Assembly: GCA_022226955.1 (NCBI GenBank)
Contig: CP092079.1
Coordinates: 1,457,053 to 1,521,052, forward strand
Origin: Nitrospira sp.
GTDB taxonomy: Bacteria; Nitrospirota; Nitrospiria; Nitrospirales; Nitrospiraceae
Length of the DNA stretch: 64,000 nt
Reading direction: 5' to 3'
The notes under the pieces: generated by a model
What the model saw: the letters and a program-made list of their open reading frames with translations, nothing else
What the model was told of the DNA's origin: nothing
Databases searched by the model: none
Translations under genes and position numbers: made by a program
In this document: in pieces, positions 9,068 to 12,971 of the stretch
Layout of the letters: each line of letters starts with the position of its first letter
Numbering within the stretch: position 1 is the first letter of the stretch

Positions 9068-11395
9068 TTACGGCAGTCCGTTCCGCAACTCCGTGCCATG
9101 CATCCGGGCAAACAGATCCCAGTCGAACTGTTTCGGCGATACCGCATGGAGCGGGATCGTCTCGATCACCCCGCGCTCGCGATAGGCCAGCATGCCGCCC
9201 ACAACATCCTCCGGACGTTCCACTAATCGATGGATCGTCTCATAGGCCAGATGTTGCGCGATCGCTTTGTCCTCCGGCGTCGGCGGCGCGCCGCGCAAGG
9301 TATGGCCAAGAATGGTGGCCTTCGTGGCCTGCGACAACGCATACAACCCGGGCCGCGCATCGCGTTGCGGCCATTGCGCCATCACACCGGCCACGTAGTC
9401 GAGCAGGCCATGCACCCCGCCGTCTCGATGGTGGCGATGCGGCGTGCGTTCGGCCACGACAAACAAGTGGCTCTTATTGGGCACTCCCAATGTACGCTTC
9501 AGCGTCCCGAGCACGACCTCGTCGATATAGGCATCGGGGTCCGGATGCTCGTTGACCAGCAGCCCCTCGGCGCGCGCTTGATAGGCGCAGGCCAGCGCGA
9601 GATGCCCCGACCCGGCGCCCATGACTTCAACGAAGAACACCGTGCCCATGGCGGCACTTGTGGCCTTGAGCGATTCAATCGATTGATTCGCCAGGGCAAT
9701 GGCGGAATGGTAACCCAGCGACGTCGTCCCTTCGATATTGTTGTCGATCGTGCCGGGCAAGCCGACGACCTGCACGCCGAACGCCTCGAAAATTGCCCGG
9801 GCGCCGCGCAAGCTGCCGTCGCCGCCCAGCACGATCAGCGCGCCGTCTTGCAGATAGGGTTCGAGGTGCCGCATCACCGCCTGCTGCACCGCTTCTTCCT
9901 TGAACGCTTCAAAGCGGCTGCTGCCGATGGGACTGCTCGCATGGCTGCTCATGCCCCGCGTCGCCTCTTCCGTGACCGCTTCGATCCAATTGTTCGCCAG
10001 GCCGAGGAACCCGTGCCGGGCGAAGTGCACTTCCAGGCCGAACCGGTGGCCGGTCACGCGCAATTCCTTCAACGCGGCCCCGGCGCCCGCAAAATCGCCA
10101 CCGGAGACCACCGCGACAATCCGTTTGATCTGGCGAGGCTTCAACGTCACGCGATCCTTGCGTATCCGCTCGACCGAGGCCCAGGTATCGCGCGCCGCCC
10201 GCTCCCGCTCCGATAATCCGACCGCTGTGGAGTAGCCCGACAAGCGCCCTTGCTCGTACGTAAGCAGCACGACATTATCCTGGCTCTCTTTGTAATCGCT
10301 GAATTCGGTGAAGGCTTCATGGAACGGGCGCGCGTCCAGGTAAATCATGAGCGCCCGCAACGTCGAACTGTGCGTATACAGGCAAGCCACCTGGCCCTGA
10401 TGCGCGTCGCCCATGCGATGCAGGCCATCGATCACATCGACGTAGAGGTCGAAAAACGAATTCCCGCCAGGATAACAATACAGCGGATTTTTGATCAGAC
10501 GTTTCGCGGTGGACACCTCGACACCGAACGCTTTGGCAAGTTCCTGCGCCTCCACCGTTTTTTCGACGCCCGTGATCCACCCGAAATCCGACGACTCTAA
10601 CGCAGGCGCATACGCCGCCTCGGTGGGAGCATGCGAGTCCTTGATGAGCGCGGCCTCGACACGCTCAAAGAGCTGCCTGGTATTGGGACTTCGAGTGATG
10701 AAGTGGCGAAACCTGGCGGGATCGAGATAGTTCGACAAGCGGAGAAAATCCAGCTGCCGGCCGACCACGCCAACCATCAGGGCCAGCGCCGCCCCCACCG
10801 TGTCGGCGCGCGGCACGCCCCGCTCCGCATCAAGTTGATTCGCCAAGCGGCAGCCAACCCGGTACGTCTTGCTTTCCACCCGCGAAATACCGTGGCGCAT
10901 CGTAAAGAACAGCGTGCGTTCGGCCAGCTCGCGCGGCAAGAGCCAGAATCGCTCGTCACCCAGATCCAGCACAATGCGGCCTTCCGCGAGCTGCGGGGTC
11001 AGCTGCGCGCGCGGCACGATGGCGACCGGGCGGCGATGAGCCGGCTTCAAGACCGATCCGATCGGCGCGCGCAACAAGGGCTGCAACGCGCCTTCGGCCA
11101 GCAGCCGGTTCCATGCGGCAAAAAATACCAGCGGATCGCCGGCGCAGGCCTCATCGATCACGGCTTGCCTGGCGGCCCGGTAGGCCTCGGCTCCTGAAAA
11201 TCCGGTTTGCGCATGCTGAACCAATGCCACAATCCGCTCCATGGCCTGGCGCGCGCGCGCGGCGCGATCGTTCGACGGAGCCGGAGCGGGCGGCGCCGAC
11301 ACGCCATCGATCGCCGGCTGGCGCGCGAACTGCTCTCCATAGGCCAGCAGGCCTTCAATCGTCACGAAATCGAGTGCGTTTATGGTACTCTGCAT
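9068..11395 (-). CDS. 6-phosphofructokinase fused to an FBPase-2-like histidine phosphatase domain
   Basis: A 775-residue protein. Residues 425-775 are a PfkA-type kinase: SGGDFAGAGAA (431-441), GGDGS (524-528) and PGTIDNN (547-553), then GHTLRGAPP. Gly in GGDGS and PGT is typical of ATP- rather than pyrophosphate-dependent enzymes. The second Asp of the usual TIDND is Asn here. Residues about 155-400 look like a histidine phosphatase: RHG at 167-169, S-x3-R at 236-240, YPGGNSFFDL, and the second His in THSS (342). This resembles the fructose-2,6-bisphosphatase half of eukaryotic PFK-2/FBPase-2. Residues 1-150 match nothing I recognise. The start has a good AAGGAG site. It is divergent from pyruvate kinase with a 118-base gap. 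The kinase call is secure; phosphatase activity is inferred. Confidence 0.88.
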   Translation of the reverse strand: MQSTINALDFVTIEGLLAYGEQFARQPAIDGVSAPPAPAPSNDRAARARQAMERIVALVQHAQTGFSGAEAYRAARQAVIDEACAGDPLVFFAAWNRLLAEGALQPLLRAPIGSVLKPAHRRPVAIVPRAQLTPQLAEGRIVLDLGDERFWLLPRELAERTLFFTMRHGISRVESKTYRVGCRLANQLDAERGVPRADTVGAALALMVGVVGRQLDFLRLSNYLDPARFRHFITRSPNTRQLFERVEAALIKDSHAPTEAAYAPALESSDFGWITGVEKTVEAQELAKAFGVEVSTAKRLIKNPLYCYPGGNSFFDLYVDVIDGLHRMGDAHQGQVACLYTHSSTLRALMIYLDARPFHEAFTEFSDYKESQDNVVLLTYEQGRLSGYSTAVGLSERERAARDTWASVERIRKDRVTLKPRQIKRIVAVVSGGDFAGAGAALKELRVTGHRFGLEVHFARHGFLGLANNWIEAVTEEATRGMSSHASSPIGSSRFEAFKEEAVQQAVMRHLEPYLQDGALIVLGGDGSLRGARAIFEAFGVQVVGLPGTIDNNIEGTTSLGYHSAIALANQSIESLKATSAAMGTVFFVEVMGAGSGHLALACAYQARAEGLLVNEHPDPDAYIDEVVLGTLKRTLGVPNKSHLFVVAERTPHRHHRDGGVHGLLDYVAGVMAQWPQRDARPGLYALSQATKATILGHTLRGAPPTPEDKAIAQHLAYETIHRLVERPEDVVGGMLAYRERGVIETIPLHAVSPKQFDWDLFARMHGTELRNGLP

Positions 11396-11513
11396 GCTTC
11401 TCCTTCATCTCCGGGCTGTCGATCCGGCCATCGCCGTGGCGCCCGCCACCGGGCATGAACGAGCGCATCATTGGATGTCCGCTATTTCTATGTCAAGGGC
11501 TGAGGAACACCGC

Positions 11514-12971
11514 ATGCGAAAAGCCAAGATTATCTGCACCATCGGACCGGCCAGTAACACCCCGCCGGTGCTAGACCGGCTCATTGAAGCCGGCATGAAT
11601 GCCGCCAGGCTGAACTTCTCTCATGGGAATTACGATACGCACGCGGCCGCCATTGCAGCGGTCCGCCAGGCGGCGGAACGCCGTCAGGCCGCCGTCGCGA
11701 TCATTCAAGACCTGCAAGGGCCTCGCATCCGCCTGGGCGAGTTACCCGCTGAGGGAATCGACCTGAGCGTCGGTCAATCGGTGCGGCTACAGACAATGCT
11801 GGCGCGATCCGGTGGGCAACTCGGCGCCCAGTCTGTCGCGTCACGGCAGGCCACCGTCCCCGAGATTCCCGTCACCTATCCCTATCTTGCCCGCGACGTC
11901 AAACCCGGCGCGCGGATTCTGATCAACGACGGGTTAATCGAATTAGTAGCCGATCGCATCGTCGGCGGAACCGTCGAATGCACCGTCACGACCGGCGGAA
12001 AAATCACCTCGAACAAAGGCATCAATTTACCGGGCACAGCGGTCAGCGCTCCAACGCTCACCGACAAAGACCGGGAAGACATCCGGTTCGGCATTGCGCA
12101 AGGCGTGGATTATCTCGCCCTCTCCTTCGTCAGAGGGCCGGAAGACATCGTCGCGGCGCGGGCGCTGGTCACCGCTTGCGGCGGAGCGCTGCCGATCATC
12201 GCCAAGATCGAGCGGGCCGAAGCCATCGCCGCCTTGGACGCCATCTTGGATCAGGCGGATGGGGTCATGATTGCGCGGGGCGATCTGGGCGTCGAGCTGA
12301 GCCCTGAAGCCGTGCCGCTGTTGCAGAAACGGATTATCCTGGAAGCCAACCGCCGCGGCCGCCTCGTCATCACCGCCACACAAATGCTGGAGTCGATGAC
12401 ACAGGCCTTGCGTCCGACCAGAGCGGAGGCCTCGGATGTCGCCAATGCCGTATTCGACGGCACCGACGCGGTGATGCTGTCGGCTGAAACGTCCATCGGC
12501 GCGCACCCGGTTGAAACCGTCCAGGTCATGGATCGCATCGTGTGCGTGGCGGAAGAAGGCCCCGAGCCTGGCGTAAACCTCACGCGCCACACCGATTGGG
12601 GAGGCATGGATTTCCCCGAAGCGGTCTGCACCGCCGCAGCGTCGGCAGCTAAAGCGATTGCCGCCAGCCTCATCGTCGTCTTCAGTGAACGGGGGACGAC
12701 CGCGCGTCTGATCTCGAAACAGCGTCCTGCCGCGCCGATCGTCGCCTTCACCCTGTTCGAGCCGGTCAGAAAACAGATGGCCCTCTATTGGGGCGTGCGC
12801 CCCTATACCATGCCGCAGATCGAACATACCGATGCCCGTATGGACGAAGCCGAGCGACGGCTGAAAGCGGAGGAACTGGCTAAGGCGGGAGACCGGATTG
12901 TCATTCTCTCCGGGACCCGCAGCGGGCACCCAGGGGGAACGAACCTGATCAAACTGCATGTCGTGGGATAA
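11514..12971 (+). CDS. pyk: Pyruvate kinase
   Basis: A 485-residue enzyme converting phosphoenolpyruvate and ADP to pyruvate and ATP. It shows the N-terminal AKIICTIGPAS, the NFSHG active-site loop, KIERAEA with the catalytic Lys, and MIARGDLGVEL followed by the TATQMLESM signature. The C-terminal allosteric-type domain is present and ends in a GxPGGTN motif. Start 11514 was chosen because MRKAKIICTIGP is the family N-terminus and a GAGGA site lies upstream; the frame is open further upstream. Divergent from the phosphofructokinase fusion, so the two lower-glycolysis control points share one regulatory gap. Confidence 0.96.
   Translation: MRKAKIICTIGPASNTPPVLDRLIEAGMNAARLNFSHGNYDTHAAAIAAVRQAAERRQAAVAIIQDLQGPRIRLGELPAEGIDLSVGQSVRLQTMLARSGGQLGAQSVASRQATVPEIPVTYPYLARDVKPGARILINDGLIELVADRIVGGTVECTVTTGGKITSNKGINLPGTAVSAPTLTDKDREDIRFGIAQGVDYLALSFVRGPEDIVAARALVTACGGALPIIAKIERAEAIAALDAILDQADGVMIARGDLGVELSPEAVPLLQKRIILEANRRGRLVITATQMLESMTQALRPTRAEASDVANAVFDGTDAVMLSAETSIGAHPVETVQVMDRIVCVAEEGPEPGVNLTRHTDWGGMDFPEAVCTAAASAAKAIAASLIVVFSERGTTARLISKQRPAAPIVAFTLFEPVRKQMALYWGVRPYTMPQIEHTDARMDEAERRLKAEELAKAGDRIVILSGTRSGHPGGTNLIKLHVVG

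Follow-up and report, generated by a model that had tools for sequence, protein, structure and literature searches.

The window, that is, the whole 64,000-nucleotide stretch of Nitrospira sp. DNA analyzed here, carries on its minus strand an intact gene for a protein in which a histidine phosphatase (HP)-fold module precedes a phosphofructokinase (PFK) domain, with a pyruvate kinase gene divergently beside it. The initial annotation had read the product as a PfkA-type kinase fused to a histidine phosphatase resembling fructose-2,6-bisphosphatase (FBPase-2). The fusion itself was borne out by a Pfam match of the kinase half (PF00365 on residues 425 to 722; E value, 4e-53; 181 bits against a gathering score of 30.9) and by fold matches of the other half (Z up to 14.7), and the residues picked out at that stage were all found in place (RHG, 167 to 169; S236-x3-R240; YPGGNS, 308 to 313; H342; TIDNN, 549 to 553; MGA, 592 to 594). 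Nitrospira, comammox organisms among them, are major nitrite oxidizers in wastewater and soils; to our knowledge, their use of stored carbon is poorly known.

Architecture of the fusion gene

The gene and its surroundings comprise the following features:
9068 to 11395, minus strand: HP-PFK fusion open reading frame, 775 amino acids, ATG to TAA, intact, supported by orthologues
11021 to 11395, minus strand: helical N-terminal region, residues ~1 to 125, without a family (AlphaFold2 model; no Pfam match)
10211 to 10924, minus strand: predicted HP branch 1 fold, residues ~158 to 395 (fold matches; PF00300 in orthologues)
9086 to 10135, minus strand: PfkA-superfamily domain, residues ~421 to 770 (PF00365)
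11396 to 11513, no strand: 118-bp intergenic region between the divergent fusion and pyruvate kinase genes
11514 to 12971, plus strand: pyruvate kinase, divergent neighbor, with the conserved start MRKAKIICTIGP

A Shine-Dalgarno-like AAGGAG lies four bases 5′ of the fusion ATG, third-position GC is 0.75 and 0.78 in the two halves, and codon-position GC is uniform across both. The pyruvate kinase frame has its first ATG at 11382, overlapping the fusion start; the conserved start is at 11514. Orthologues at 63 to 95% identity have the same architecture. His_Phos_1 (PF00300) matched the window protein below cutoff (residues 248 to 361; E value, 0.0081) and matched all 16 orthologues scanned (best E value, 5.5e-6), and in 20,000 shuffled versions of the N-terminal half the ordered HP motif never arose. 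Pfam gave no PFK-2 family match in the protein, the kinase being PF00365. Among 148 Nitrospirota genomes, the N-terminal region plus HP module was found only in the fusion, never without the PFK half; matches in plasmid records were to PFK alone, and the HP part matched none.

In most nonsaturated pairs, dN/dS was ~0.07 to 0.13 in both domains, which indicates strong purifying selection on both halves. One orthologous frame (L036, 5830 to 7890) aligns only from query residue 142 and has no N-terminal helical region, which could reflect either genuine loss or a frameshift. Two others (L041 and L044), on small metagenome contigs, are broken into two or three frames, probably by sequencing errors.

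The histidine phosphatase-fold module

Residues 1 to 419 were modeled with AlphaFold2 using 33 orthologues (pLDDT, 77; pTM, 0.81), with pLDDT ~90 over most of residues 41 to 110 in the helical N-terminal region. Residues 160 to 393 of the model matched HP branch 1 structures in VIA-align (1ebb: Z, 14.7; rmsd, 2.8; 196 aligned; phosphoserine phosphatase: Z, 14.2; Escherichia coli cofactor-dependent phosphoglycerate mutase [dPGM]: Z, 12.6; FBPase-2 domain 1fbt: Z, 12.4; PFKFB3: Z, 12.3), and the leading PDB matches in Foldseek were all histidine phosphatases, nearly all of branch 1. The predicted HP fold of residues ~158 to 395 is well supported by the model. A profile alignment to the genome's own GpmA, whose weak statistics allow it to set the register only, paired RHG with RHG, LESSDFGW with LNERMYGE, YPGGNS with PPGGES, and THSSTLRAL with AHGNSLRAL (fusion first), which puts RHG and H342 in the two positions canonical for HP enzymes, as had been claimed.

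Conservation was read from 71 family rows, in which the window sequence stands twice (as query and as L098); the tree holds 70 distinct rows. The pocket positions are as follows:
10889 to 10897, minus strand: RHG, residues 167 to 169, position of the phospho-accepting His (71/71; GpmA register)
10874 to 10876, minus strand: E174, at the phosphate-binding Asn (RHGxxxxN) position of dPGM and FBPase-2, counted from RHG (Glu or Asp in 71/71)
10676 to 10678, minus strand: R240, canonical second HP Arg of S236-x3-R240 (Arg in 54/71)
10592 to 10594, minus strand: S268, in the register of the HP acid Glu (dPGM LNERxxG) (Ser in 71/71; GpmA register)
10370 to 10372, minus strand: H342 in THSS, second HP histidine (71/71; GpmA register)

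R167, H168, and H342 are invariant. The remaining motif residue named by the initial annotation, the Arg of S-x3-R, is not family conserved: residue 240 is Lys in 8 rows and Thr, Glu, Ser, or His in 9, the tree requires 10 or more changes there, and the His-Arg-Arg-His quartet, complete in the window protein, is not complete family-wide. The loss of R240 in a quarter of orthologues, together with Ser at the acid position, points to a noncanonical pocket, and the variability of R240 lowers the odds that the module is an ordinary phosphatase. E267 or D270 may serve as the acid in place of S268. Compared with PhoE/YhfR, phosphoserine phosphatase, and dPGM, the module shares the branch 1 fold over residues 160 to 393, RHG, and the second His, but it differs in the unconserved second Arg, in Ser at the acid Glu, and in Glu or Asp at the RHGxxxxN Asn, and identity is 16 to 18%.

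The FBPase-2-like identity was not supported. The order of motifs from RHG to H342 is shared by HP branch 1 at large and does not single out FBPase-2, and the comparison of the model with FBPase-2 and PGM upheld the HP fold but no special tie to FBPase-2. Specific kinship found no support in the Z ranking, in which PhoE and phosphoserine phosphatase (Z, 14 to 14.7) outscore FBPase-2 and PFKFB3 (Z, 12.2 to 12.4). These results bear on whether the protein could be a bacterial counterpart of the PFK-2/FBPase-2 switch, with fructose 2,6-bisphosphate or another sugar bisphosphate as a signal that its PFK-1-fold kinase would make and its HP domain destroy. By E value, PFKFB3 narrowly heads the Foldseek rows, PFKFB is also among the top rows, and the kinase changes described below fall on residues that orient fructose 6-phosphate (F6P); FBPase-2, however, is not the closest structure to the HP part by Z, the PFK-1 and PFK-2 kinase folds are unrelated, and these genomes are without a known receptor for such a signal, and we give this reading very little credence. 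Eukaryotic PFKFB is analogous in that a single chain carries both an HP domain and a kinase acting on a sugar phosphate, but the fusion has a PFK-1-type kinase, the reverse domain order, and a different HP pocket, and no evidence linked it to fructose 2,6-bisphosphate. A switch evolved independently of PFKFB, in which a regulatory sugar bisphosphate directing nitrifier carbon flow would be formed by a rewired PFK-1-fold kinase and removed by the HP-fold phosphatase, is likewise given very little credence.

Scarcely any is given to the HP half being the cell's phosphoglycerate mutase or housekeeping FBPase, fused for channeling: dPGM does belong among the HP-fold members, but GpmA is encoded separately, and class I FBPase was present in 28 of 29 Nitrospira genomes, this one included. 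The need for a phosphatase in gluconeogenesis or as a PGM was likewise not evident, and a housekeeping role of either kind was set aside on the same two separate genes.

The phosphofructokinase half

Kinase residues are numbered here after E. coli PfkA (fusion D551 = D127). D129, R171, and R243 matter in PfkA of E. coli and Geobacillus stearothermophilus; R243 is an interface Arg that, like R162, holds the 6-phosphate of F6P, and R21, R25, R54, G185, and K213 are residues of the ADP/PEP effector site. Two motifs depart from PfkA in every row, and both departures had been noted from the window sequence (the second Asp of TIDND is Asn, and MGR lacks its Arg):
9737 to 9751, minus strand: TIDNN, residues 549 to 553, with the base D551 kept and N553 in place of D129 (Asn in 71/71)
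9614 to 9622, minus strand: MGA, residues 592 to 594, with A594 in place of R171 (Ala in 71/71)

In addition, R162 is replaced by Ser, Thr, or Asn in 71/71 rows and R243 by Lys in all 70 rows with data. Asp127 is described in the 2025 PFK superfamily review as the catalytic base and Arg162, donated by the neighboring subunit, as binding the F6P phosphate (PMC12203962). D127 is kept in 71/71 rows, and G11, R72, D103, E222, H249, and R252 are kept in the orthologues with data, as are the ATP-type glycines G104 (71/71) and G124 of GGDGS and PGTIDN. The same-subunit F6P contacts (E222, H249, R252, M169, G170, and D127) are all in place. Throughout the family, the residues of the effector site are replaced (R21K; R25V/A/S; R54E/D; G185R; K213N), so control must come from elsewhere. 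An invariant His-rich segment, PHxHH (residues 652 to 656), follows E222 and is new relative to PfkA.

Overall, the kinase half resembles PfkA of E. coli and G. stearothermophilus in its full-length PF00365 match, GGDGS, PGTID, R72, E222, H249, and R252, and is unlike it in identity (~30%), D129N, R162S/T, R171A, R243K, the replaced effector site, and the N-terminal HP module. Scores fell short of the curated cutoffs for ATP-PFK and PPi-PFK subfamilies (PRK03202, 174.5 against 253; TIGR02482, 164 against 371; TIGR02483, 132 against 430; others lower). Nine separate Nitrospirota PFKs retain D129, R162, and R243 in 9/9 and R171 in 8/9. These genes (L087 to L095) appear unusual too: several have GGNGS or GGTGS for GGDGS, and D103 is present in 4/9 rows. 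The full-length fusion model (pLDDT, 66 overall; poor in the PFK half) was left unread for HP-kinase contacts and kinase-site geometry.

By sequence, the fusion belongs to the PFK superfamily and falls outside its curated subfamilies, and no precedent was found for its partner domain. No description of an HP-PFK fusion was found in the literature searched, and a term search of the 2025 review returned no mention of a phosphatase fused with PFK (PMC12203962). The sole N-terminal fusion listed in the same source is that of yeast PFK-1, which also carries an extra N-terminal domain, a glyoxalase-like one (PMC12203962); that of the fusion is unrelated to it, and the fusion has a single PFK unit against the tandem pair of yeast.

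The changes D129N, R171A, R162S/T, and R243K take away residues important in E. coli PfkA and so count against the glycolytic reading given below: the kinase might be slow, might prefer another substrate, or might be inactive. One half might be a pseudoenzyme, with the PFK half a noncatalytic sensor or scaffold and the HP half the sole enzyme, or the reverse, as the family-wide loss of D129, R162, R171, and R243 on one side and the variable R240 and Ser acid position on the other would allow. The base D127, D103, the ATP site, RHG, and H342 are nevertheless invariant and both halves are under strong purifying selection, which makes this reading rather improbable. Invariance of the odd residues, taken with the low nonsynonymous change, argues for a repurposed site and not for decay.

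Distribution, genome context, and proposed role

The architecture was present in 56 of 245 sampled Nitrospirota genomes (in one split over two contigs), in seven family groups that all belong to the window's class, a one-class restriction that holds within Nitrospirota, the phylum surveyed. A scan of a species-wide contig collection with short peptide patterns, which finds close relatives only, located it at 44 loci, all Nitrospirota, including Nitrospira moscoviensis NSP M-1 (L007). The fusion and any PFK match were missing in 8 of 28 sampled Nitrospira genomes, and some lake Nitrospira have been termed phosphofructokinase negative (PMC9239080).

In its own genome, the fusion is the sole PF00365 gene. 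Of its three PfkB-family genes, read from sequence, one appears to encode an HldE-type heptose kinase, one ThiD, and the third a sugar kinase adjoining an MTAP-like gene, which leaves no second PFK apparent; the genome also has class I FBPase, GpmA, two pyruvate kinases, and a glycogen synthase family gene. Presence of the fusion could not be discriminated by glycogen synthase, which is nearly universal in the sample. Of 50 fusion-bearing genomes, 30 have pyruvate kinase adjoining the fusion (divergent in 26, codirectional and downstream in 3, and convergent in 1), a recurrence that ties the fusion to glycolysis. The neighboring pyruvate kinase of order-level relatives is a distant paralogue (37% identity), which means that either the pairing was remade or the partner exchanged.

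We favor, tentatively and at slightly less than even chances, the reading that the fusion serves these nitrifiers as their glycolytic ATP-PFK, its substrate site having been rebuilt and its HP module acting as a regulator or antagonist in cis. It would work in the glycolytic direction, on hexose or glycogen breakdown, with the neighboring pyruvate kinase. G104 and G124 suggest ATP as the phosphate donor, and the kept same-subunit contacts make F6P the likely substrate. With both neighbor-subunit arginines lost, the substrate phosphate would be held differently, and the PHxHH segment after E222 is a candidate for this. Control by ADP and PEP would have been lost with the classical effector site and taken over by the HP module, which might either dephosphorylate the same or a related sugar bisphosphate or sense a phosphometabolite and gate the kinase. 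Absence from 8 of 28 Nitrospira genomes, the scores under the curated cutoffs, the six genomes below with an additional PFK-like gene, and the poor model of the PFK half were counted against this glycolytic role.

The kinase half might instead take another sugar phosphate (e.g., sedoheptulose 7-phosphate or another ketose phosphate), with the HP half dephosphorylating the same or a related compound, and not be a glycolytic PFK at all. Replacement of both 6-phosphate arginines (R162 by Ser, Thr, or Asn; R243 by Lys), Arg at G185, and the new PHxHH would suit such a substrate, and a canonical PFK is also present in some genomes; in six genomes, all from other orders than the window's, the fusion coexists with a separate PFK-like gene, which argues for a different fusion role there. 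The kept F6P contacts and the position of the fusion as its own genome's sole PFK gene, adjoining pyruvate kinase, speak against this reading, which we consider doubtful, if worth keeping in view.

In many Nitrospira-type nitrifiers, the fusion is the sole recognizable phosphofructokinase-1, and control of sugar breakdown in them probably differs from the textbook scheme. The one PFK candidate here, a conserved protein of two domains, has a kinase site unlike that of every canonical PFK compared and, as its partner, a phosphatase fold; at stake is whether these bacteria have rebuilt their control of PFK.

At two loci (L009, 6865 to 9463; L016, 7610 to 10362), the fusion shares its strand with pyruvate kinase and HAD-family phosphatase genes lying downstream, which may form an operon with it. 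In a distant relative (L034, 4356 to 5600, minus strand), a GlgC-type glucose-1-phosphate adenylyltransferase gene adjoins the fusion, a hint of glycogen metabolism.
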